A stretch of DNA of 64,000 nucleotides from the NCBI RefSeq assembly GCF_002909255.1, contig NZ_PIOB01000003.1:434001-498000 (forward strand). Reading direction: 5' to 3'. Under the pieces are notes generated by a model. It saw only the letters and a list, made by a program, of their open reading frames with translations. It made no database searches and had not been told where the DNA came from. This DNA is from Arenibacter hampyeongensis. GTDB lineage: Bacteria > Bacteroidota > Bacteroidia > Flavobacteriales > Flavobacteriaceae. Numbering within the stretch: the first letter of the stretch is position 1; each line of letters starts with the position of its first letter. The position numbers and the translations under genes are program-made. Positions 1,687 through 64,000 of this stretch are shown in pieces.

Positions 1687-1788
1687 TTACTCTGAACGGT
1701 CCGACCGTCCTTTGAACCTACCCACGACTATTGATATTATGAACACGAGAATACCAACACCCAAAGCCCACCAGTACATTTCCATCAT
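1687..1788 (-). CDS. 33-residue single-pass membrane peptide
   Basis: A short open frame lies between the multicopper oxidase and the TRASH-type lipoprotein. It starts at ATG 1788 with a second ATG directly after. It reads MMEMYWW, then a hydrophobic core of about 16 residues (ALGVGILVFIISIVVG), then a basic/polar tail GRFKGRSDRSE. This is the layout of a one-helix membrane peptide with positive residues inside. It fills an otherwise empty gap and is on the operon strand. No family is recognised. Coding is supported only by position, composition and the amphipathic layout, so chance remains possible. Confidence 0.5.
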   Translation of the reverse strand: MMEMYWWALGVGILVFIISIVVGRFKGRSDRSE

Positions 1789-1903
1789 TTCATAGTTTGT
1801 GTTCTTTTCTAATCATTTTGAAATTAATTTCGCTATCATTTTTCTGAATTTTTCACTAAGCTGATATTCGAAAATAAATCTCAATTTGTTATGGAGACTT
1901 GTC

Positions 1904-2335
1904 CTAATGGTCCATTCGGCTAACTTCTTTGAACTTTAAAAAATTCTCCTCTGATCCAAAGTAGGCAACTTTGTTGTCCACGCCCATCAGTACAATGAAT
2001 GCTTCTGTTTTATCGATTTTATGTTTACTAAAAGGGTCAATGCCCGTTCTGGCTTCATCATTGTTGTTCAATGTTTTAACACACATTTCGCAACAGCCAT
2101 AGTAAGTCTTGCCATTTACGGGAACGGGAATTTGCATTTTTCCCATGAAGGCATCATTTACCATACAGACCAACTCCTTTGGTACTTGGGAGCCCACCTG
2201 AGGATTTTTATTTATGATATCTTCAGGTTCTACAGTGGCAACCACTTGTTTAGTATCTTGTGCCGACACGTTCTTATTTTCTGATTTACAACCCATTAAG
2301 GTCAATACTAAAATTCCTGAAAGTAGTATTCGCAT
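1904..2335 (-). CDS. TRASH/YHS-like metal-binding lipoprotein
   Basis: The 143-residue protein is read from the internal ATG at 2335. The longer frame from 2365 adds ten charged residues before a normal signal peptide. It has a lipoprotein signal with lipobox LMGC. Mid-protein, residues CMVNDAF and YYGCCEMC supply a C-x(n)-CC-x2-C cluster like TRASH/YHS metal-sensing or metal-carrier domains. The C-terminal half (VLMGVDNKVAYFGS) resembles the compact fold of that family. It lies between the adaptor gene cusB and the multicopper oxidase, so a role in holding or handing over copper in the periplasm is inferred. Confidence 0.75.
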   Translation of the reverse strand: MRILLSGILVLTLMGCKSENKNVSAQDTKQVVATVEPEDIINKNPQVGSQVPKELVCMVNDAFMGKMQIPVPVNGKTYYGCCEMCVKTLNNNDEARTGIDPFSKHKIDKTEAFIVLMGVDNKVAYFGSEENFLKFKEVSRMDH

Positions 2336-2446
2336 TGTCTTATCATTTTTTGTTTTAATTTCCAATTAATATTTCTTACTGTAGAGGGTCCTAATTCTTT
2401 TATATGTCAACTTTAAGCTATATTTTAATTTTCTAAAATGTTATTG

Positions 2447-4294
2447 CTACTTACTGATGATAGCTTCCGTGGTGCCACATGTCAACATTTTGTTTCCCAT
2501 ATAAGGATTCCTGATTTCCTCATGGATACTAAGCCAATATGCCCCTTTTTCGTTATCTGCCATTGGGCAAAATTGCTCATATACTTCCTTGTTTACACCA
2601 AACAGGCGTACACCTTTTGATAAATGTGCCGATAGATGTTTAAAGTGACCCCTTTGCTTTTCAATATCAGAGGTTTTGCCAATAGCTTCTGAAGATGACT
2701 TGATCTCCTTTGAAATGGCCATCCAGTGATTATGGGCCTCCTGGTCGGTCAATTGTTTCATATCTACCTTTTTCAATGTGGCCAACAATTTATCGGCCCC
2801 CTTTTTTGCCGCAGTGGCCTCGTCCTTTACCAAGGCGTCTTTGAGGTCCAGATAGTTGTCAAAGACTTTCTCAAGCTGCCCAACAAAGATTTTTGACACT
2901 TCCATTCTCTTTTCCATACGGCTGTGGTCAGTCTTATCGGGCATTTCAGAATGGTCCGTAGATTCATTGGATCTCATTCCACTTTCCGATTCTTTTTCTC
3001 CTCCCTTATCCATACCTCCATGATTATGCCCTGTCATGGCTGGGCCCCCTTCGGGATTCATCATGCTGGGCTTGCCGGCAAGTTGTGCAGCGGCATCTAT
3101 GCTGAAGGTTCCGTTAATGGCAATTTCCTCACCTTCTTCCAGTCCTTCGTTCACTACGAAACTTTCGCCCAAAGCCGGGCCTAACGTGACGTCGCGCATC
3201 ATAAAATTTACACCTTTGTCCGAAATATTCTTTATATAGACCACAGAACGCTTTCCTGTCCACATGACCGCTGTTTTGGGAATAACGATTGCATCGGACT
3301 TTAAAGGCAATTTAGCCTCAACAGTGCCGGAAACGAACATTTCGGGTTTCAGTTGTAGATTCCGATTATTCACTTCTACCCTTGCTTTTGCAACCCTGGT
3401 CATAGGATCGATCACAGGGTCCAAATACGAAATCTTTCCTTTAAAGGTTTCGCCTGGTACAGATTGTACCGTAAAACTTACCTCATCACCCTTTTTTATC
3501 CAGACCATGTCGGATTCATAAACATCGAACAATATCCAAACAGTGCTCAGGTTGGCAATCTGGTATATAGGCATGCCTTTATTGACGTAGTCCCCAAGAT
3601 TGACCTTCTTTTCTGTCACATAGCCAGATATATCGGCCAGTATGTGGAGTTCTTCTTGAACTGTACCCGATTCCAGAATTTGTGTAATCTGGATATCCGA
3701 AAGCTTCCAGTTTTTAAGTTTTTCCTTTGCCGAGTTAAAAAGCATTGGCTGGGTCTCGACTATTTTTCGGGCCTCGAAAAGTTCTTCTTGGGCATTGACC
3801 AGATCTGGAGAATAAATAGAGGCGATTACCTGCCCTTTATTAACGTATTCGCCGGTAAAATTAACCATCAATTTTTCAATGCGGCCAGGAATATGGGAAG
3901 ATTGGGAATAGACCAACCGTTCATCGGCCTGTACCTTTCCATTCAATCGCAATAACTTTACAGGCTTGGTCTTTCCGACAATTTCTGTACCGACATTTGC
4001 AATCTGCATTGCGGTCCGAGACATGCTGATTGCCATGGGATCCAATTCAGCATTGCTATCGTTATCCAAAGGAATCAATTCCATGCCGCAGATGGGGCAG
4101 TTACCCGGTTCGTTCTGTCTGATCTGTGGGTGCATGGAGCAGGTCCAAATGGTCTCACTGACGATTTCGCCGTCGTGTTGGTGTTCGTCCACTGTCCTGT
4201 TTTCCGAACCTCCGAAAAACAGCCATCCAAGCAATAACCCTATGATCAAGGTAATTGCAGCTATACCTATTATTTTTTTAGTTTCTGTTTTCAT
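2447..4294 (-). CDS. cusB: CusB-type RND adaptor with heavy-metal-binding and DUF3347 domains
   Basis: Membrane fusion protein joining the RND pump to the outer-membrane channel for copper/silver export. An N-terminal membrane anchor (residues 8-27) is followed by a heavy-metal-binding motif C52-x2-H55 and C66-P-I-C69 with GMELIPL. Then come the barrel-sandwich, beta-barrel and membrane-proximal domains typical of CusB (about 95-400). A His/Met-rich linker (about 410-465) leads into a C-terminal DUF3347 domain whose end reads FCPMADN...NPYMGNKM. The same domain closes the protein at 19468-20283. At 615 residues it is longer than E. coli CusB because of these additions. It lies 4 bases downstream of the TolC gene in the operon. 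Confidence 0.93.
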   Translation of the reverse strand: MKTETKKIIGIAAITLIIGLLLGWLFFGGSENRTVDEHQHDGEIVSETIWTCSMHPQIRQNEPGNCPICGMELIPLDNDSNAELDPMAISMSRTAMQIANVGTEIVGKTKPVKLLRLNGKVQADERLVYSQSSHIPGRIEKLMVNFTGEYVNKGQVIASIYSPDLVNAQEELFEARKIVETQPMLFNSAKEKLKNWKLSDIQITQILESGTVQEELHILADISGYVTEKKVNLGDYVNKGMPIYQIANLSTVWILFDVYESDMVWIKKGDEVSFTVQSVPGETFKGKISYLDPVIDPMTRVAKARVEVNNRNLQLKPEMFVSGTVEAKLPLKSDAIVIPKTAVMWTGKRSVVYIKNISDKGVNFMMRDVTLGPALGESFVVNEGLEEGEEIAINGTFSIDAAAQLAGKPSMMNPEGGPAMTGHNHGGMDKGGEKESESGMRSNESTDHSEMPDKTDHSRMEKRMEVSKIFVGQLEKVFDNYLDLKDALVKDEATAAKKGADKLLATLKKVDMKQLTDQEAHNHWMAISKEIKSSSEAIGKTSDIEKQRGHFKHLSAHLSKGVRLFGVNKEVYEQFCPMADNEKGAYWLSIHEEIRNPYMGNKMLTCGTTEAIISK

Positions 4295-52862: not shown

Positions 52863-53146
52863 TGAAAAGGTTCGAGGTATATCGCAACATCAGAAAACAG
52901 GCCGTGATATTCGGCCTATCCATCTCCTTTTTTGCCCTACAAATGATTTGCGTGGTCGGTTCTTTAATGGTTATCATTTTCTCGTTCAGTCTTGCGATGA
53001 TCATGGGTGTATTGGTATTCAATGCTGGCCTTTATGTAGCCTTGATCAGGATTTCAAACAACCCACAATCAATTACACTTTGGGGGGTATATCCAAAAAT
53101 CATCAGCAATAAAAAATCGTCATTAATTAGCTATGGACAAGATTAA
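52862..53146 (+). CDS. VirB3/TraF-like transfer protein
   Basis: 94 residues with two membrane helices (about 15-34 and 37-58) followed by a basic cytosolic tail with the NPQSITLWGVYPK segment. It has the size and position of VirB3/DUF4133-type TraF, and it precedes and overlaps the VirB4-like ATPase gene (53133-53146), as expected for the pair. Confidence 0.72.
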   Translation: MKRFEVYRNIRKQAVIFGLSISFFALQMICVVGSLMVIIFSFSLAMIMGVLVFNAGLYVALIRISNNPQSITLWGVYPKIISNKKSSLISYGQD

Positions 53147-55547
53147 TCTTTCGGCACACCATCCTATTGCGGATATTAGATCCAATATGGTCTTTGCCAA
53201 TAATGGCAATGTAATCCTGTGTTATGAGGGTTCCTTACCCGAGATCTATTCCCTTTCCGAGAAGGATTTTGAGGATATCCATGGTACTTGGTTCCAGGCT
53301 ATCAAATCCTTACCCATCGGATGTGTAATCCACAAACAGGATGTTTATTTAAAGAAACAGTACACTTCTGAAAATTTGCCCAATACCACGTTTCTGGCCA
53401 AGGCTACACATAAGCATTTCAAAGGACGTGATTATATAGAACATAGGTGTTTTGTGTTTTTTATCCTTACCAAGAACAAGGCATTAAACAATGCCAAATA
53501 TGTGAACCCGTTCCGAAAAGTTCCCCAAGGGATTCCCCAGGAACTGAACGATCAGATTAAAAGTTTTATGGACTCAGTAAACGACTCCGTTTCCTATATC
53601 AACAACAGTCGAAAAATGCAGTTTGTCCCTTTGACCGAAAAGGAAATCCTAACCCTTACCGACAACTATTTCAACGGGTTCAATGAGGGTTTTGATACCG
53701 ACATCCTCTTGGACCGGTCCAAGATTTCCATTGGGGAGAATCTCTTTGATGTTTTGGCCATAAACAGTGAGCTTTGCTTTGGGGAGAATGTCCAGAGCAG
53801 CAAGACCAATGAACGTTTTACCTCGGACGATTTTGTGTTCCATCAGGGGTTCATCGATGGAATAGGACTCGCGTTGAACGAAAACCATATCGTAAACCAG
53901 ATCATCTACCTGGACGATAAACATAAATGGCGCAAGCTGTTGGACAAGAAGATCGAAGATCTTAAAAAAAGTTCCAATTTCGGTTCCCAGAACAAGGTAA
54001 CGCTTTCAAAAGTCCAACTGATTCTTGACCAGATCAATAACGATGACAGCTCGCGCATCATCCGTGGCCATCTCAATGTCATCTTTTGGAATCCCGAAGC
54101 CAAGGGCCTTGCTAAAATAGGTTCAAAAATAAGGACCGAGTTCAAAGAGCTTGATATTGTCCCCTACTACCCCAGGGGGGAGGAACGCAAAAATTATATC
54201 CTCAATAGTTATTTCTGTTTCTCCCCCAATTTTTCTGACGAGGACCTATATGTGACCGACCTGAAACATGCCCTGTGTTTGTACATAAACAATAGCAACT
54301 ACAAATCGGATGCTACGGGAATCATCTTCAATGACCGGGAACACAACATTCCGGTACTAAAGGATGTCTGGGATGAAAGAAAAAAACGAATCAAAGCACG
54401 GAATTTTGCCATTTTCGCGCCAACGGGAGAAGGCAAGTCCTTTCTGGCCAATAATATACTCCGTCAATACTTCGAGGCCGGAGTCCGGCTGGTCATCATC
54501 GACCTTGGAGGGTCCTACACCAAGTTTGCGAAACTTTATCCCGAACAATACACCGTACTGAGATATGAGAGCGGTAAAAACCTGGGCATCAATCCATTTT
54601 ACGTTCAAAATCCTGAAGACCTTACCCCGGAGCGATTGGAGGACCTTTCGGTATTTCTTTTTGAATTGTTGGCCTCTGAGCTAAAAGCCACTAAAGCCCA
54701 GTCGGTCTCCATAAAAAAGATACTACTGTATTATTATCAGATAATTGGGGAGAACCATTCCTTGGACAGCTTCTATCGCTTCATAGAGGAACATCAAAAG
54801 GGTTTGTTGGACGAACTTAAAATACAGGCCGATTACTTCAATATCCCCGGCTTCCTCCATATTATGTCCGAATATGTTGGCAATGGACTGTACAGCTTCC
54901 TTTTCGAGGTCAGCGAGGACCAGACCTTTAAGATCGAAGACAAACGCTTGATCGTTTTTGAGCTGGACGAAGTAAAGGACAATAAAGAAATCCTTTCGGT
55001 AATGTTGAAACTTATCAAGTCCGCCATCCAAAGAACCATTTGGAAAAATCGAGCGGAAAAGGGCATCATCCTTTTCGATGAGTTTGCCAAACAACTGAAA
55101 TTCGAGAATGTCCTGGAAAGCGTGGAATTCTACTATCAGGCCATCCGGAAACAGAACGGGGCCATAGGGATCATCCTGCAATCCATCAACCAATTGCCAA
55201 ATAATTCTACTTCGGCGAGCATACTGGAAAACACCCAGGTCATTTATAGCCTAAACAACGAAAAGGGCTATGGGGAACTGAAGAACAGGCTGAACCTGTC
55301 CAGCCATGACCTAAACCAATTAAAATCCATCAAGAATAATCTTTCCGGGCCACGCAAGTACACGGAAATGTTTATCAAGATAGGGAAGGAAAGCAACATT
55401 TTCAGGTTGGAAGTACCCCCTGAAGTCTATGCCGCCTATTTAACCGATGGCGAAGAAAACGCCCGCATAATGCGGATTTATGAAAATACCAATGATATGG
55501 AGAAAGCTATAACCGAATTTATTAACCCAAATAACAAGAAAACATGA
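53133..55547 (+). CDS. traG: TraG/VirB4-type conjugation ATPase
   Basis: 804 residues. Walker A APTGEGKS (429-436) is followed by VIIDLGGSYTKFA, and the Walker B GIILFDEFAK lies in the C-terminal half, with the IGIILQSINQLPN sensor region. The N-terminal part (1-390) is the usual VirB4 membrane-associated domain. It powers pilus assembly and substrate transfer through the type IV secretion system. It overlaps both neighbours, 14 bases upstream and 4 downstream. Confidence 0.92.
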   Translation: MDKINLSAHHPIADIRSNMVFANNGNVILCYEGSLPEIYSLSEKDFEDIHGTWFQAIKSLPIGCVIHKQDVYLKKQYTSENLPNTTFLAKATHKHFKGRDYIEHRCFVFFILTKNKALNNAKYVNPFRKVPQGIPQELNDQIKSFMDSVNDSVSYINNSRKMQFVPLTEKEILTLTDNYFNGFNEGFDTDILLDRSKISIGENLFDVLAINSELCFGENVQSSKTNERFTSDDFVFHQGFIDGIGLALNENHIVNQIIYLDDKHKWRKLLDKKIEDLKKSSNFGSQNKVTLSKVQLILDQINNDDSSRIIRGHLNVIFWNPEAKGLAKIGSKIRTEFKELDIVPYYPRGEERKNYILNSYFCFSPNFSDEDLYVTDLKHALCLYINNSNYKSDATGIIFNDREHNIPVLKDVWDERKKRIKARNFAIFAPTGEGKSFLANNILRQYFEAGVRLVIIDLGGSYTKFAKLYPEQYTVLRYESGKNLGINPFYVQNPEDLTPERLEDLSVFLFELLASELKATKAQSVSIKKILLYYYQIIGENHSLDSFYRFIEEHQKGLLDELKIQADYFNIPGFLHIMSEYVGNGLYSFLFEVSEDQTFKIEDKRLIVFELDEVKDNKEILSVMLKLIKSAIQRTIWKNRAEKGIILFDEFAKQLKFENVLESVEFYYQAIRKQNGAIGIILQSINQLPNNSTSASILENTQVIYSLNNEKGYGELKNRLNLSSHDLNQLKSIKNNLSGPRKYTEMFIKIGKESNIFRLEVPPEVYAAYLTDGEENARIMRIYENTNDMEKAITEFINPNNKKT

Positions 55548-56200
55548 AATTTTCAAAAAAAATTCACGAACACTTCGGCAATAGATTCGCCGTGAGTAAA
55601 ACATATGAGAAACAAACCTTTAAGAAAAGCGTACTTACCATGGTCATTGCCCTGACCATGGCCATATTATTGCCAGGCCGTGCCACGGCCCAAGGAGTGC
55701 CGGTCTACGACAACACCAATTTCATCTCCTTTATGAAATCCCTTCTAGAGTCGGGAAAACAGACCTCACAATTGTTAAAGACTGTCAAGTTTTTAAAACA
55801 ACAGAAGGAAAACGTAGATAAGGTCAATGATGTGATCAAACAACTAAAGGCCGTAAAGGAACTCGCCAATAGCAACCAACGTCTGTTCGATTTCGTACAG
55901 GACGACCTGAGGGAGATTTTCAACTCTCCCTATATCAAACCTGATGAAGTTACCCGTATCTCGGATTCCTTCAACGACATCATAGAAAACTCTCTGTCCG
56001 GCATGGATTATATAGAAGAGGTGCTGTCCAGTGACAACCTGAGAATGACCGATGCCGAACGGGCTGCGGTCCTCAAGGAAAAGGAACTGCAATCCAAGGA
56101 AATGGTGGCCGAAATAGAGGCCAAAACACGCCGTTATCGAGAAATAATCGCCTTTAGGGAAATGCAGGACAAGATCAATAACCGAGAAGCCAAGTATTAA
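55544..56200 (+). CDS. TraI/VirB5-like transfer protein
   Basis: 218 residues. A basic N-terminus and hydrophobic segment (residues about 30-48, ending TAQG) suggest export. The remainder is alpha-helical with coiled-coil-like stretches (FLKQQKENVDKVNDVIKQLK, ERAAVLKEKELQSKEM). It sits in the place of TraI (DUF4141-like) in Bacteroidota operons, and it overlaps the ATPase gene by 4 bases. Pilus-tip or periplasmic scaffold function is inferred. Confidence 0.72.
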   Translation: MKFSKKIHEHFGNRFAVSKTYEKQTFKKSVLTMVIALTMAILLPGRATAQGVPVYDNTNFISFMKSLLESGKQTSQLLKTVKFLKQQKENVDKVNDVIKQLKAVKELANSNQRLFDFVQDDLREIFNSPYIKPDEVTRISDSFNDIIENSLSGMDYIEEVLSSDNLRMTDAERAAVLKEKELQSKEMVAEIEAKTRRYREIIAFREMQDKINNREAKY

Positions 56201-57042
56201 TGTCGGACATTTTTTTAGGTATCGGTCTGGAATATGTGGACACTGTTTTTCAAGCCATTAAGAACAGTGAATTCTCACGGTACACCATTACGGGAATGAA
56301 GACCCTTGCGGTACTGTTCTTTCTGATCAATATTCTAAAAAAATACAATGAAGGCGTGGCCAATAATGAAGGTTACACCTGGGGACTGACCCCTGCCGAA
56401 CTGGCCAAGAATTTTGCGGTAATCATTATTGTCATTTTTTCCACTCAGGTGCTGGGGGTTTTCGACTCAATTTTGGTGGCCGTTGAGTCTCAATATAGGG
56501 ACACGGCCCCTGCCCTACTTCCCTTGCAGATGCAGGAAATTGACATAGAACAGGATGTGGGGGCGATCGAAGCAGCAAAAAAGGCTATGGCACTTTTATA
56601 TGAGGCTTTGGTGACACCCTTGTTCGGCCTAAAGATTTTGGCGTTCATAATTGGATTGTTTCTTTGGTTGATGGACCTGTTCATCTATCCTTTGTTTTTG
56701 GCAGAACGTTTCTTTCTCTTGGGGATAATGCAGGCCTTTTTTCCATTGATCATCAGCCTAGCCGTATTCGAAAAGTTTAGGTCATTGGCATACAATTTCT
56801 TTAAGCTCTATGCAGGGGTTTATATGTTGGTGCCGGCATTTTTCTTGGTCAATGTATTTGTCAACTTTATATATACCGAGCTGAACACCAACTTTTGGTC
56901 AAGTCTGTTCGGAACGGACTGGGGAAGCCAATTCTTTGCGCCTGTAATACAGTTGGGGTCCATAGGATTTATTGTGTTCTTAAAATTCAAATTGTACCGT
57001 AGGGCTATCTCGTTTACGTTGAAACTATTTAGCGGTATATAA
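56200..57042 (+). CDS. traJ: TraJ/VirB6-type inner-membrane transfer protein
   Basis: 280 residues with six or so membrane helices, including LKILAFIIGLFLWLMDLFIY and MLVPAFFLVNVFVNF. The arrangement matches the polytopic VirB6/TraJ component that forms the inner-membrane pore base. It overlaps the previous stop by one base and is followed by the TraK gene 18 bases on. Confidence 0.82.
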   Translation: MSDIFLGIGLEYVDTVFQAIKNSEFSRYTITGMKTLAVLFFLINILKKYNEGVANNEGYTWGLTPAELAKNFAVIIIVIFSTQVLGVFDSILVAVESQYRDTAPALLPLQMQEIDIEQDVGAIEAAKKAMALLYEALVTPLFGLKILAFIIGLFLWLMDLFIYPLFLAERFFLLGIMQAFFPLIISLAVFEKFRSLAYNFFKLYAGVYMLVPAFFLVNVFVNFIYTELNTNFWSSLFGTDWGSQFFAPVIQLGSIGFIVFLKFKLYRRAISFTLKLFSGI

Positions 57043-57059
57043 ACAATAAAAAACCACTG

Positions 57060-57674
57060 ATGAAAACACCTTATAAAAATATTTACAAAATCCTGAACCA
57101 AAATCGTTTTATCGTTTTGTCCGTAGTTGTAGCTGCAACCTTAACTAGCATCTTTTCCATATGCATGGTCATAAAACTGCATAGGGAAACTGTCAACAAG
57201 GCCTTTATGGTCAATACCGATGGAAATGTAATCCCCTTAAAATTGGTTTCCCAAAAAGAAAATTTGGGAGTAGAAGTTTTGTCCCATTTGGAATTGTTCC
57301 ACACTTATTTTTACAATATAGACCCAAGCAACTATGAAAAGAACTTGGAAAAAGCACTTTGGTTGGGCAACAGTTCGGTGGATGCCCTATATAGACAGAA
57401 AAAATCGGACGGGGTCTATAATCGGTTATTGCAGTATTCCTTGGTCCAAAAGGTACTCCAGATCGAATCCGAAATAGAGATTTCCCAAGAACCTTATACC
57501 TTCCGTACCACAACCCTATTCGAAATCAATCGGGGTCAGGTAACGGACATCTACGAATTGGTGACAACCGGCAATCTGATTCACGTGGACCGGAACTTTC
57601 CAAAAAATACCCATGGGCTTTTGATCACCAACTATTTCGAAAACTCGTTAAAAAAAATACAGGATGAAAATTGA
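57060..57674 (+). CDS. traK: TraK/VirB8-type transfer protein
   Basis: 204 residues. A single N-terminal membrane helix (about 15-37) is followed by a periplasmic VirB8/NTF2-like domain with the LELFHTYFYNIDP start and a C-terminal FRTTTLFEINRG sheet. This is the TraK of Bacteroidota transposons, a scaffold of the inner-membrane complex. No TraL-like gene stands between it and the next one; the stop lies 11 bases inside that frame. Confidence 0.88.
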   Translation: MKTPYKNIYKILNQNRFIVLSVVVAATLTSIFSICMVIKLHRETVNKAFMVNTDGNVIPLKLVSQKENLGVEVLSHLELFHTYFYNIDPSNYEKNLEKALWLGNSSVDALYRQKKSDGVYNRLLQYSLVQKVLQIESEIEISQEPYTFRTTTLFEINRGQVTDIYELVTTGNLIHVDRNFPKNTHGLLITNYFENSLKKIQDEN

Positions 57675-58596
57675 AAAGAACAAGATCGTGTTTGGGTCGG
57701 TAATTCTGGTCATTGTACTGTTCATTGGGGGATATACCATGATGGTTATAGGAAACGATGAGAATTCGGAAGAGTCTTTGGAACAGACCGAAGTACCCCA
57801 ATTGGAAGAACAACAAAATGAGTACAAATCCAAACTGGAAGCTGTAGACAATATCCCAGAAGAACGCGTGAAAAATGCACCCAGCGTATATGATGAAAGG
57901 TTTTTGGATTCTACCGGGCTATATGATCCCGATTTTTTGGACAGGGATAAACAACGTATCGTTGATAGCATCTACAGCCAAGGGCGGATCGACTATTCAG
58001 AAAGCAGGTACCGGAAAGTGGAAACCAAAAAAGCTAAGGTGGTTGCACCCATAGAGAAGGATACTATTGAACTTGAAGCTGAGCTACCTATTTCTACTAA
58101 GGAATTGGCGTTGGAGCACCAGCTCTTTTTTGCTGCGGATCCAAAATCAAATCCTATATCCCTTGCTCTCGATCCCCCTGTTGTTAAAGTAGAAGTGGAT
58201 GGCAGTCAAGTGGTACGGGCATACAGCCGGCTGCAGCTGCGCCTACTGCAAGAAGTACAATTGGGCAATACAAAAATTCCTAAGAATACTTTGATCTATG
58301 GCATTGTCAGCTTTAAGCCCAACCGGACACTCCTTAAAATTGATAATATCAATCATATTCCTGTTAAGCTCAAGGCCTTCGATCTACAGGACGGACTGGA
58401 GGGCATTTATGTGGAGAACAGTTTTCGGGGCGAAGTAGCAAACGAGGTGGTTGATGATGTCCTGGACGATATCAACATCGCTGGGGTACCACAGGTAAGC
58501 GGTATCAAAAAAGTCTTTCAACGGAATAACAGAAAAACAAAAGTAGCCGTGCTCAACAATTATAAACTCATTTTAAAAGCTCCTATGGGGCAATAA
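57664..58596 (+). CDS. traM: TraM/VirB10-type transfer protein
   Basis: 310 residues. A membrane helix (8-26) is followed by an acidic, low-complexity periplasmic linker (30-150). A C-terminal VirB10/TraM domain then appears, with VVRAYSRLQLRLLQEVQL and KNTLIYGIVSFKPNRTLLKI. It spans the periplasm and couples the inner complex with the outer core. It overlaps traK by 11 bases. Confidence 0.88.
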   Translation: MKIEKNKIVFGSVILVIVLFIGGYTMMVIGNDENSEESLEQTEVPQLEEQQNEYKSKLEAVDNIPEERVKNAPSVYDERFLDSTGLYDPDFLDRDKQRIVDSIYSQGRIDYSESRYRKVETKKAKVVAPIEKDTIELEAELPISTKELALEHQLFFAADPKSNPISLALDPPVVKVEVDGSQVVRAYSRLQLRLLQEVQLGNTKIPKNTLIYGIVSFKPNRTLLKIDNINHIPVKLKAFDLQDGLEGIYVENSFRGEVANEVVDDVLDDINIAGVPQVSGIKKVFQRNNRKTKVAVLNNYKLILKAPMGQ

Positions 58597-58608
58597 ACTT
58601 ACATTCTT

Positions 58609-59430
58609 ATGAAAAAATTGATACCCTTGCTCGGTCTTCTGATCATTATGGCCACTTTAGAGGCGCAAAATGGAAAAGTCATCGACACCATTTATGCAAA
58701 TGAACAAAAGACGGTATCCCTGTTCTTTCCAGGTCCCATTCGACAGGGAGTTACAGGGGCCTCCAATTTCGCCTTTAGCTTCAATAGGGAAAAAGCACAG
58801 TACTTTGGGCTGCTACAGGCCACTCCCGGCGAGGAAAGTAATCTTTTGGTAGTAACCCAGGACGGTGGGATCTATTCCTATCTGCTACGGTATTCCCAAA
58901 AATTGGAAAGGCTCAATTATTTTATTGCCGGATCCGAGAGTATAGGCAATGAAAGGACGGGCCCCACTATATTGCCACATCAGGAATTGTCTTCGATTGA
59001 TTTGGACACCATCCCAAACTCAGATAAAGCTTTGGACTATCCCAAGCTGTGTTCTCAATTGCTTCGAAATCCCAGGCCTTTTGATCAGATAAAATATAAG
59101 GATGGAGTCACTATTGGCATGACGAAAAGTATCTATTATCTTAACGAGGTCTATGTGGTCTTTGAAATTGATAACGATTCCCAAATTGATTTCGAAATCA
59201 ACACCTTGAACCTGTACAAAGCAAACGGCACCAAAAAACGAAAGGCTTCCTACCAGGAACTACTCCTTTCGCCTATTTATCAGTATAAGGTGCCACTAAC
59301 GGTTCCAAAAGGCCAGCAAGTACAATTTGTATGTGTATATCCTAAATTTACTTTAGGGGTCCGTGAAAAGCTATTAGTTAAATTGGAGGAATTGAATGGG
59401 GCTAGAGATGTTTTGGTAAAACGTCCATAA
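58609..59430 (+). CDS. traN: TraN/VirB9-type transfer protein
   Basis: 273 residues with a signal peptide (core 4-16, cut near LEAQ). It begins with TIYANEQKTVSLFFPGPIRQGVTG, the strand pattern of VirB9/TraN, and the C-terminal half carries the YLNEVYVVFEIDNDS and IYQYKVPLTVPKGQQVQF strands. It should form the outer-membrane core ring with TraM. It is the last tra gene in the window; the usual TraO-TraQ genes do not follow. Confidence 0.88.
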   Translation: MKKLIPLLGLLIIMATLEAQNGKVIDTIYANEQKTVSLFFPGPIRQGVTGASNFAFSFNREKAQYFGLLQATPGEESNLLVVTQDGGIYSYLLRYSQKLERLNYFIAGSESIGNERTGPTILPHQELSSIDLDTIPNSDKALDYPKLCSQLLRNPRPFDQIKYKDGVTIGMTKSIYYLNEVYVVFEIDNDSQIDFEINTLNLYKANGTKKRKASYQELLLSPIYQYKVPLTVPKGQQVQFVCVYPKFTLGVREKLLVKLEELNGARDVLVKRP

Positions 59431-60320: not shown

Positions 60321-61811
60321 TTAAAAACTAAGCAAGGAATTTATAGATTCTTTTAAAAAAGCATAAAATCCTTTGTTCTTTTTATTTACTAACGAATTTT
60401 CATGCTTAATTCTGCTATTCTCAGCTGCTAAATGATTTATTATCAAAGATTTATTTATTTCATCTGCACTACCAAGTAAACCTTGAGAAATTGAACAATC
60501 ATTCCTGCATTCATTGTCAAATTCGAAATCTATATTTCCTGTATTAAAATCCATTTCTTTTGGACCATAATAAATCCCTCTAGGTTTCAAAATCAAGGAT
60601 AAGAATTGTTGTATTTCCATTCCTGCCAAACTTAAACTAAAACCAAAAACATTTTCACCTCTATTAATAAAATGATTCTTTGGTAAGCCTTTAATATAGT
60701 TAGGATTATCCAACTCTCCAGACATTTCCAACGCAGCATCTTCGGGTTTATATTGCCCTAAACATTGCATACAGATTCTTTCAGGTCCTATTGTGTGAGC
60801 CTTCCATCTTGCTTGATCTATATTTGATAAATCTTCCTTTGGATTTGTATCAATTCCTCCATCAATTACAGGAATTAAATTAGCAAATGATAAACAATCT
60901 AAAGTGTATCTCGGCAAAGGCATATCTACACAAGAAAATAATATATCGCAATCTAGAGCCGCATCCTGTCCTTCTTTTTCAGTAATGCTAAATGTGACAG
61001 CATTAATACTTAAATCTGAAATAAGCTCAGTACTTAAAAGACGTTCTTTTAGAACATCTACTTTAAATTTGCCTACATCTACTCTATTTACTGCTAATAA
61101 TCTATCTAAATTTTTCAATTCAACTACATCAAAATCTATAAAGGTTAAGTTTTTTATACCAGTCCTTAAAAGAGCTTCAGCAACAATGGAACCAACACTA
61201 CCTAATCCAACTATTCCAATTTTTAACCTAGTAATTTCATGCTGTTTTAAATCTCCCCAAGATGAAATAGTACGTTTAAACTCTTCTCCGAAATTAGATT
61301 TTGGCAAAATATCATCACAAAAATATGTTTTTAGAGACTTCCCTACTACTCTTACAGATTCACACCAATAACGTTCATAAGTATTTGGAGCTTCTTTAAT
61401 CCAAAAGCGAGCACTCCAATAGTTATCTGTTCCAAGTGTCATTCCAATTAAAGGTAATCCTGTAACGGCCTTAACTCTTGGTGCTAACATTTTTTCTGCT
61501 TCTATGTCATCAAAGCTCATTCCTTGCCAACCTGGATAAGGATGGCTATGTATAAAACAGATTCCTAAATTATTAGCTAACGCATAAGAAGTCACTTTAT
61601 CAAAATAAACTGAATTAAAACTTACGTTTCCATGTACATTTCTGTCCCCAAATTCTGGTAAAATCACCTCATTAATTACTCCTGTTTTTCTTGATTTTCC
61701 AGAAGATAATTTATAAAAAGCAAAGCATAAATCTTCTTGACCATCCTCTCTAATGAGGTGTTCAAAAAATATCCTATTGACATTTTCTGTCATTGTTATG
61801 CTGTACTTCAT
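60321..61811 (-). CDS. JAB protease-E1 (ThiF) fusion protein
   Basis: 496 residues in two parts. The N-terminal JAB/JAMM isopeptidase (about 1-150) has the metal motif H88-S-H90-P and S99-x2-D102, with E48 or E53 as the general base. The E1/ThiF adenylation domain (about 190-420) has GLGSVGS (202-208), the acidic strand end D226/D228, R237 and D296. Cysteine pairs C347/C350 and C435/C439 likely bind zinc. E1 would activate a Ubl tail and JAB would trim or remove it. The start overlaps the E2-like stop by 4 bases. No separate catalytic E1 cysteine is obvious. Confidence 0.88.
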   Translation of the reverse strand: MKYSITMTENVNRIFFEHLIREDGQEDLCFAFYKLSSGKSRKTGVINEVILPEFGDRNVHGNVSFNSVYFDKVTSYALANNLGICFIHSHPYPGWQGMSFDDIEAEKMLAPRVKAVTGLPLIGMTLGTDNYWSARFWIKEAPNTYERYWCESVRVVGKSLKTYFCDDILPKSNFGEEFKRTISSWGDLKQHEITRLKIGIVGLGSVGSIVAEALLRTGIKNLTFIDFDVVELKNLDRLLAVNRVDVGKFKVDVLKERLLSTELISDLSINAVTFSITEKEGQDAALDCDILFSCVDMPLPRYTLDCLSFANLIPVIDGGIDTNPKEDLSNIDQARWKAHTIGPERICMQCLGQYKPEDAALEMSGELDNPNYIKGLPKNHFINRGENVFGFSLSLAGMEIQQFLSLILKPRGIYYGPKEMDFNTGNIDFEFDNECRNDCSISQGLLGSADEINKSLIINHLAAENSRIKHENSLVNKKNKGFYAFLKESINSLLSF

Positions 61812-62167
61812 TCGAAATCTAATAATGTTCTTAAGAACGCTAAATAGTCATCCGCAGTCATACCAGAAGTCCAACCTCTAAATGGTCGACTCCAATACTG
61901 ATATTCTGGTGTAGGAACTTTTCTGTCATGTATTCCACCAAAAGGATGTACTCCTCCACCTCCACTAATTGGAAGTAAATGTGGTTTAATATGTGGTCCC
62001 GAAGGTGGTAATAATGGAAATTGAAGACCTTGTAAAGCTATTTCAATTTCTTGTCCTTTAAACCTTCCTAATGGTACGATAAACTTGAAGCACACAAAGT
62101 TATTTGTGTGCATCCAAGTTTCGAGTCCTTTGCTTTGCAACTGACTCATCAACTCTTGATTTCCCAT
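61808..62167 (-). CDS. E2-like (prokaryotic E2 family E-type) protein lacking a catalytic cysteine
   Basis: 119 residues. Helix-strand start, then LGRFKGQEIEIALQGLQFPLLPPSGPHIKP as the beta-sheet and PxxPP turn of an E2 fold, then HPFGGIHD and a final WSRPFRGW...DDYLAFLRTLL helix. These match the prokaryotic E2 family E as I remember it. The only cysteine is C26, in an early strand, not at the usual active site after the HPF segment. It may carry the Ubl by another residue or act as an adaptor. It lies 2 bases after the Ubl gene. Confidence 0.72.
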   Translation of the reverse strand: MGNQELMSQLQSKGLETWMHTNNFVCFKFIVPLGRFKGQEIEIALQGLQFPLLPPSGPHIKPHLLPISGGGGVHPFGGIHDRKVPTPEYQYWSRPFRGWTSGMTADDYLAFLRTLLDFE

Positions 62168-62169
62168 AA

Positions 62170-62613
62170 CTATGAAACAGTTGTAGGTTCAAGCTTGCAA
62201 GAACTAAATTTAAGACCATTTTTAATTGCTATTTTATGTTCTCTGTCATTCTTATAACTAACTTCTTTATGCCCACTAATTTGTTTTAAATAAAACCCAT
62301 TAGCATCTTTTCCTGCAGTAGTTAATATTTCATTTGGTGTCATGAAACATTCATCAACTTCTAAAGGTTCATCATCAATATAAATTATTAGCTTCTTATA
62401 AGGTTTTGCAAAAAAACCTTCAATTCCAGCGCCTTTTAAATCAATTTTTTCATCTAATTGAACTGGTTCGAAACCTTTTTCGTTTACCTTAATTAATAAC
62501 TCGTAATCTTCTACAGGTAATAAACTAGCTATTTCTAAAATTTCTTTACCTGTAATAATTGCGTTAACAGATTCAAATTTTTGTCTGTTAACTTTAAATA
62601 TAAACTTCTCCAT
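62170..62613 (-). CDS. Two-domain multiubiquitin-type protein
   Basis: 147 residues from ATG 62613; a GTG at 62637 would add eight mostly lysine residues. Two beta-grasp Ubl repeats are visible. The first (about 2-70) has FKVNRQKFESVNAIITGKEIL and LDEKIDLKGAGIEGFF. The second (about 73-140) has LIIYIDDEPLEVDECFMTPNEIL and GLKFSSCKL. The pattern, with TGKEIL/TPNEIL after the second strand, fits the multiubiquitin family. The C-terminus ends PTTVS without a di-glycine, so any conjugation signal is not the classic one. It is the first gene of the three-gene operon. Confidence 0.8.
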   Translation of the reverse strand: MEKFIFKVNRQKFESVNAIITGKEILEIASLLPVEDYELLIKVNEKGFEPVQLDEKIDLKGAGIEGFFAKPYKKLIIYIDDEPLEVDECFMTPNEILTTAGKDANGFYLKQISGHKEVSYKNDREHKIAIKNGLKFSSCKLEPTTVS

Positions 62614-62878: not shown

Positions 62879-64000
62879 TTATCTTACCCAACCAAGCGCT
62901 AATAGTTTATCAATATTGCCATTGATGCCAGATTGTATTAATTTATTACTATCCAATTTATTAATTTCCATTTTTCTAATTTCTTCATCTAATGGCATAG
63001 AATTAATTGCTTCTTTCTCAACTTGACCTTCCAAATACGTGGTTAGTGTATCTAGATTGTTTGCTGTGAATCCTTCTATATTATTCTCAAAATCATATTC
63101 GAAAATCAATAAATTATCTTCTAAATCAAGTTGAGCTCTATTCATTAGTAATTCAGCTCTTTTAATTGCCTCAATTTCCCAAAGTTGTAGCTCATCGTTA
63201 ACAGTTTTTGTACCTATTGAAGCATCAACCTCTATTCGCACTTCTTCCCTTATTTTTATATTAGAGTGCAGAAAGTTTCTATCAGCCAATAACCTAGACA
63301 CTTCATTGTAAACTTGTTGTTGTCCTTTGGTATCTCGTATGGTCACTATCAAAGTAAAATCTTGATTTAAAACTTCGCCATCTTCTTTTGACCTTGTTTC
63401 GGCAAATTCTCTATATTCCCCTTTAATTTTAACATACCATTTTCTTCCGTTTGTTAAACTGTCTCTTTGTCTAGCAGCTGTCATTTCATCTAGGTTTATT
63501 GAGTATTTTTTAACAGGCTGATATTTTTTACCGTAGTTTAAAAGCATTCGTTCTCTAGCATAATCACTTGTCGTATCCTTCTTATAATAGCTGCCATAGT
63601 TCGAATCTAGTATTACATTTTTTGGGTCCTCTGGTCCAATTGGATTTAGAATATTTGATTTAGTTGTATCTCTATTTTTTATGTCATCATAAGTGCCAAA
63701 TTGTAATTTTAGATTTGATTGACAGTATTCAGCTCCTTGTTTCTCCCTTAGTACGGGCTGTGCAACTAATGTTATCTTAACTTCACCATAAAAGAAACCA
63801 TTCTCATCGATTAAGCTTTCTGGAAAGGGGAAATCAAGAATTTCTATAAATTCTCCTTTGTTAATATTCTCCTGTAATATTAAAGTAATTTCGTGTGGGT
63901 CGTTATAGATAATGTCATCTGCAGACGAAGCAACTCCAAAACCCATTTGATTTACTTTTTCGCTAATAGAAAAATCTACTCCTATTGGATATTTTGCTGA
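62879..64000 (-). CDS. Subtilase-family (S8) protease, C-terminal region; 5' end beyond window
   Basis: 373 visible codons; the frame is open to the right edge, so the N-terminus with the catalytic Asp/His/Ser is not seen. The visible part begins in FSISEKVNQMGFG and contains the ITLILQE, DFPFPESL, YGEVKITLVAQPVL and GAEYCQSNLKLQFGTYDD segments. These are typical of the C-terminal domain of defence-associated S8 peptidases, often found with an AAA+ ATPase (the IetAS type). If so, an ATPase gene should lie just beyond 64000. It is AT-rich like the Ubl operon downstream. Confidence 0.7.
   Translation of the reverse strand, partial: SAKYPIGVDFSISEKVNQMGFGVASSADDIIYNDPHEITLILQENINKGEFIEILDFPFPESLIDENGFFYGEVKITLVAQPVLREKQGAEYCQSNLKLQFGTYDDIKNRDTTKSNILNPIGPEDPKNVILDSNYGSYYKKDTTSDYARERMLLNYGKKYQPVKKYSINLDEMTAARQRDSLTNGRKWYVKIKGEYREFAETRSKEDGEVLNQDFTLIVTIRDTKGQQQVYNEVSRLLADRNFLHSNIKIREEVRIEVDASIGTKTVNDELQLWEIEAIKRAELLMNRAQLDLEDNLLIFEYDFENNIEGFTANNLDTLTTYLEGQVEKEAINSMPLDEEIRKMEINKLDSNKLIQSGINGNIDKLLALGWVR

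Follow-up and report, generated by a model that had tools for sequence, protein, structure and literature searches.

How might a bacterial ubiquitin-like tag be attached when it ends in serine and its E2-fold partner keeps no conserved cysteine? This question is raised by an operon of Arenibacter hampyeongensis at positions 60321-62613 of the window, which is the whole stretch of DNA that was analysed (64 kb of the 5.4-Mb host genome, contig NZ_PIOB01000003.1, 434,001 to 498,000). Ubiquitin-like tags are typically attached via a C-terminal glycine through cysteine thioesters. The operon is transcribed from the minus strand, in the order ubiquitin-like protein (Ubl), E2-fold protein and JAB-E1 fusion:

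62170..62613, minus strand: Ubl gene, 147 aa, two beta-grasp domains, C-terminus ...LEPTTVS, BubA-like
61808..62167, minus strand: E2-fold protein gene, 119 aa, Ser93 in a WSR motif, BubB-like
60321..61811, minus strand: JAB-E1 fusion gene, 496 aa, N-terminal JAMM peptidase and ThiF/E1 adenylation domain, BubCD-like

Two bases separate the Ubl stop from the E2 start, and the E2 and JAB-E1 genes overlap by 4 bases, in line with an earlier note on this DNA (the original prediction) that called the genes overlapping or adjacent. We lean towards reading the operon as a Bub/type 6e system for reversible ubiquitin-like conjugation that would run a serine oxyester cycle.

The three protein types named in the original prediction were all recovered. 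The first Ubl domain matches Multi_ubiq of Pfam (E value 3.9e-13), and the Ubl model (pLDDT 88) has BilA (8u38) and a Citrobacter multi-Ubl as its top matches; the BilA match spans both domains, and AlphaFold/VIA matches agree with a beta-grasp fold. Bub and type 6e Ubls carry one to three such domains, and the predicted tandem of two lies in this range. The E2-fold protein matches BubB/Prok-E2_E by model and by profile. Comparison of its sequence with the PDB, singly and as a profile, and with plasmids returned nothing useful, and Foldseek alone gave no match below 0.001. The JAB-E1 protein matches BubCD (9ea4) with an E value of 2.8e-16 by sequence and 1.1e-64 by profile. Its JAB domain is fused N-terminal to the E1 domain, as in Bub and type 6e, and has a complete JAMM motif. 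The profile families that had been proposed as a check were found in part: Multi_ubiq and ThiF (1.2e-30, in the E1 domain) matched, but no Pfam JAB match was obtained for the N-terminal domain and none of nine clade E2s scanned matched Pfam Prok-E2_E directly.

A scan of genome contigs returned 30 loci. An E2 lies beside the JAB-E1 or is fused ahead of it in every one of them, and all but one yielded a Ubl (29 of 30); the exception is L041, whose E2 is without the usual start. Close relatives are rare and scattered: at an E value of 1e-25 the phylum sample of genomes gave four positives among 395, including the window's own genome, and at 1e-30 the order sample gave one among 296, the window's own genome. 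Five actinobacterial plasmid loci have the identical gene order; their E2 is annotated as a hypothetical protein, and thus annotation pipelines may miss the clade. In Zobellia barbeyronii (L014), which holds the closest named match to the window JAB-E1, that protein is 99% identical and Ubl and E2 are 93% identical in another gene context, possibly reflecting patchy exchange of the operon.

With the window included, the clade comprises 36 loci from about 11 phyla (as given in the record titles, often those of metagenome bins), counted without L001, L002 and L004-L007 (own genome, a weak paralogue and further relatives, L005 and L006 being near-copies of L019 and L037). Its JAB-E1 proteins were compared with those of 13 DUF6527-bearing loci and two haloarchaeal loci, all on plasmids and hand-picked from the match list. 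Group labels were fixed before the tree was made, from the source lists and the presence of DUF6527. The tree has 49 rows and leaves out L034 (split frames) and L042 (cut by the contig end), which are also outside all JAB-E1 counts. A branch supported at 99/99 sets the 34 window-type rows apart, and the 13 DUF6527 rows group with support 100/100; in this tree the window operon falls in a well-supported clade that is sister to the Bub-type operons bearing DUF6527. A DUF6527 gene was found by profile search in all 13 sister loci, ten of which had seeded the profile and three had not, and in none of the 36 clade loci; in 32 of these the sequence runs on downstream for 2.3 kb or more.

Two minor observations concern the excluded and outlying loci. 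In the metagenome contig L034, the JAB-E1 gene is broken into two frames (1725-3151). The haloarchaeal plasmids (L050 2683-5015 and L057 1770-4539) form a divergent third branch with two small hypothetical genes before a JAB-E1-like protein. From their position we take these genes to be Ubl- and E2-like; the E2-like protein of L050 gave no family match.

The end of the Ubl separates the two groups. The 35 clade Ubls were read through to the stop codon (L041 has no detected Ubl). Alanine or serine is terminal in all 30 stand-alone proteins, and 22 of them end in T-P/T-V-S/A; the window Ubl ends in TTVS. The remaining five are four natural Ubl-E2 fusions and one Ubl with a 6-residue tail, and in each the motif is internal, at the junction, suggesting that cleavage there by the JAB domain would expose the mature C-terminus. 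T144 and V146 of the motif are among five nearly invariant Ubl columns, as is the start methionine, in a 30-row alignment made without actinobacterial Ubls. In the sister group, TTTEG ends 3 of 13 Ubls, namely those without a tail or fusion, and in the other ten a glycine precedes the tail or E2 domain, by eye (L013 and L056 are the least clear). Serine or alanine in the window clade fills the position of the sister-group glycine. Searches of open-licence papers, only one of them directed at the terminus, listed no description of a bacterial Ubl ending in serine or alanine.

Among 31 clade E2-fold proteins, G34 and S93 are the sole invariant residues; P51 and H59 are kept in 30 and W99 in 29. 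Cysteine occurs in at most nine of the 31 at any alignment column, and ten have none. Model, profile and cysteine counts describe a BubB/Prok-E2_E-type fold without a catalytic cysteine. The Ser93 equivalent lies in the WSR motif of Citrobacter BubB and of all seven aligned sister-group E2s. Reading by eye from the motif order, Ser93 is followed by a tryptophan six residues on (Trp99) and then by the last helix. In eukaryotic E2s (UBE2D) the layout is cysteine, a tryptophan eight residues on, and a helix. Since the two orders resemble each other and Ser93 is invariant, we think that Ser93 takes the place of the catalytic cysteine.

The JAB-E1 protein keeps the residues of both of its domains. 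E26, H88, H90, S99 and D102 of the JAMM motif, and D226, D228, R237, K250 and D296 of the adenylation domain, are present in 47 of 47 rows (34 window-type and 13 sister). The E1 cysteines of zinc-pair type are also well kept in the window clade (C347 in 34/34, C350 and C439 in 33/34, C435 in 29/34). Outside these pairs, where a Bil-type E1 Cys domain was looked for in the sequences, each cysteine is kept in at most 28 of 34 rows.

Which known system is nearest? Iyer et al. (2006, PMC1779556) described type 6e operons with a polyUbl, a cysteine-less E2/RWD-like domain, which they called inactive, and a JAB fused to the E1 N-terminus "in most cases". They add that the E2/RWD-like domain is sometimes stand-alone, sandwiched before JAB-E1, as in the window, and that a metal-binding protein is also present. 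Because type 6e already combines polyUbl, cysteine-less E2 and JAB-E1 fusion, the window operon is a variant of type 6e/Bub. The original prediction had called it reduced on account of the fused deconjugase and activator; that was mistaken, since the fusion is the norm in type 6e (PMC1779556), and Citrobacter BubCD has the same fusion in the PDB. The window operon differs from row 6e in two ways: its putative zinc-finger protein Y, which may correspond to DUF6527, has no counterpart in the window operon, and Bacteroidetes are outside its phyletic list (PMC1779556). Bub was named later, in a survey whose accessible part reports 544 operons, 219 of them with CapW or CapH+CapP and 59 with CapK+CapS, and shows no phage protection (PMC13373217).

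The nearest system is Bub, not Bil. Citrobacter BubA/BubB/BubCD (PDB 9ea4, 9ea5, 9ea8, 9eae, 9eav) shares the multi-domain Ubl, the WSR-motif E2 and the JAB before E1, and gives the best sequence or structure match for the window JAB-E1 and E2. The window clade differs, as read from its sequences, in its separate JAB-E1 branch from the DUF6527 operons (Citrobacter lies outside the tree), the DUF6527 gene that was not found, the serine or alanine Ubl end, and an E2 with no Pfam Prok-E2_E match. The clade does not have the glycine terminus (TTTEG in the sister group), and taking glycine as a Bub hallmark is our assumption; the Citrobacter BubA terminus was visible only in part. BilABCD, the antiphage bacterial ISG15-like system, likewise has Ubl, E2, E1 and JAB in one operon, and the window Ubl matches the M. 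brachiatum multi-Ubl named Ubl-BilA in the PDB (8u38). However, Bil as described in PMC11354881 has four separate genes, a catalytic-cysteine E2 (CEHH motif) and a Cys domain in its E1, whereas the window clade has its JAB fused to E1 and no conserved E2 cysteine; membership in Bil was rejected on these two grounds. Type II CBASS (cyclic-oligonucleotide-based antiphage signalling system; Cap2/Cap3) differs in its E2-E1 fusion (Cap2), the E2 of the window being separate, and no CD-NTase was present among the neighbours scanned.

In the serine oxyester cycle that we favour, the E1 domain would adenylate the C-terminus of the two-domain Ubl, the activated carboxylate being that of serine or alanine instead of glycine. 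The Ubl would then pass to the invariant E2 serine as an oxyester rather than a cysteine thioester, and from there to a target. Deconjugation from targets would fall to the N-terminal JAB metallopeptidase, which would also mature the Ubl in those relatives where it carries a C-terminal tail or is fused to E2. That the whole clade conjugates without the usual chemistry, with a serine- or alanine-ended Ubl, a MoeB-like E1, an oxyester on the E2 serine and no DUF6527 partner, is a bolder proposal that we regard as possible and hold tentatively. Ye et al. (2026) are said to have proposed a non-thioester chemistry for Bub. A broad bacterial clade in which the Ubl keeps a terminal serine or alanine and the E2 an invariant serine would probe the limits of ubiquitin-like chemistry, and the joint absence of DUF6527 and the glycine terminus raises the question of what the DUF6527 protein does.

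The E2-fold protein might instead be catalytically dead (RWD/UEV-like) and only hold the Ubl, while E1 transfers it directly or the Ubl assembles non-covalently, for example into filaments. No cysteine is conserved, TSG101 UEV domains are among its structural matches, multi-Ubl filament structures exist from M. brachiatum and Citrobacter, and the type 6e domain has been called inactive (PMC1779556). Three E1 cysteines that lie outside the zinc pairs are also widely kept (C150 and C288 in 28 and C294 in 27 of 34 rows), which weighs slightly against a serine oxyester cycle; some members of the clade may use a cysteine step on E1. However, a scaffold would not be expected to keep a serine in 31 of 31 sequences together with near-invariant His59 and Trp99, and the WSR motif is also present in the sister family. 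We therefore consider a dead E2 rather unlikely.

The surroundings of the operon bear on a second alternative, and two further features of the window are needed here:

62879..64000, minus strand: 3' part of ietS (S8 protease), PADLOC IetS 4.5e-116 for the part in the window
53133..59430, plus strand: conjugative transposon genes, with Pfam TraG P-loop (TraG-type ATPase), Transposon_TraM and DUF4138 among the three genes scanned

The ietS gene lies 265 bp upstream of the Ubl gene and is preceded by ietA in the same direction. The whole IetS is matched by PADLOC over residues 1-781 of 895 with an E value given as 0, and IetA over 1-360 of 362 (L003), which bears out the adjoining defence protease of the original prediction. 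The operon and IetAS might thus be one unit, in which the Ubl would tag targets for the IetS protease. The ietA-ietS pair is directly upstream on the same strand in both the window and L017, and annotated pairs of S8 peptidase and AAA ATPase adjoin DUF6527-type operons in rhizobia (L052 4739-7335 and L053 1-1872). By BLAST, the L052 S8 protein resembles IetS (23%, 3e-18) and the L053 AAA protein resembles IetA (35%, 2e-61); their respective partners had no match, being cut by the stretch or diverged. Among the matches listed (60 of 114 and 60 of 152 records), an IetS-like stretch also lies 0.7 kb from a Bub-type JAB-E1 (CP135082 280545-283936). Nevertheless, BLAST of the 36 clade loci (E value 1e-4) found IetS/IetA only in the window and L017, besides a lone 28% IetA-like protein in L038, in a set where several contigs are short (L016 is uninformative) and a diverged IetS could be missed. 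IetAS was not found beside the operons of L014 and L015, whose JAB-E1 proteins are 99% and 90% identical to that of the window, so the adjacency is not fixed and an obligatory pairing was rejected. Defence genes cluster anyway. We consider a single unit improbable: IetAS is a neighbouring, separate system and no part of the conjugation operon. A role of the Ubl as a sulfur carrier or cofactor protein (ThiS/MoaD-like) in a biosynthetic operon is very improbable and was rejected, for the ThiF-type E1 does have cysteine pairs, which we take to be of the MoeB/ThiF kind, but the tandem Ubl, the E2 fold, the missing C-terminal Gly-Gly, the BubCD match across JAB and E1 and the defence-island context all argue against it.

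The conjugative transposon genes are on the other side of the operon and convergent to it. We read them as the mobile element that carries the island, that is, a defence island on an integrative conjugative element (ICE). Rfam and tRNA scans of the window gave nothing relevant to the operon. Beyond ietA are Pycsar genes (PycC, E value 2.6e-134; PycTM, 5e-33), a short PADLOC E2-type protein and a CapP-like protease (7.5e-57). As cargo of such an island, the operon would most likely serve in phage defence or a DNA-damage-linked stress response, and the antiphage use suggested earlier would be plausible, even likely.

By a loose BLAST/profile criterion, 19 of the 36 clade loci have an ImmA/IrrE-type gene within 5 kb upstream of JAB-E1. 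The same criterion gave none in 14 others, the window among them, that offer 4 kb or more to search; three contigs are too short. PADLOC capP is the best match for nine of ten ImmA/IrrE-type proteins scanned, all but that of L014; one of the ten, from L013, belongs to the sister group. Upstream of ietA (L003 10643-12415), a sigma-70-like protein (Pfam region 2, E value 0.005, below the cut-off), a 132-aa protein and the CapP-like ImmA/IrrE protease stand divergent to the Pycsar genes. In L013, three genes that agree with these in order and size diverge from the Bub-type operon; BLAST pairs them with a trio of L030 (23-32%) and, at the edge of the L034 contig, with a sigma-like gene (49%). The trio profiles were seeded with the L013, L030 and L034 genes, and the only unseeded sigma match was L049. 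By position and weak sigma matches, similar three-gene sets occur in L019, L021, L023 and L029, and more clearly in L010. It is possible that the trio is a sigma-factor version of the CapH+CapP controllers.

Beyond the defence genes, L004 3791-12588 encodes a CusA/CzcA-type efflux protein, a Fur-family-like regulator and a P-type metal ATPase (open reading frame translations, by eye). By their look, these genes are probably metal-resistance cargo.
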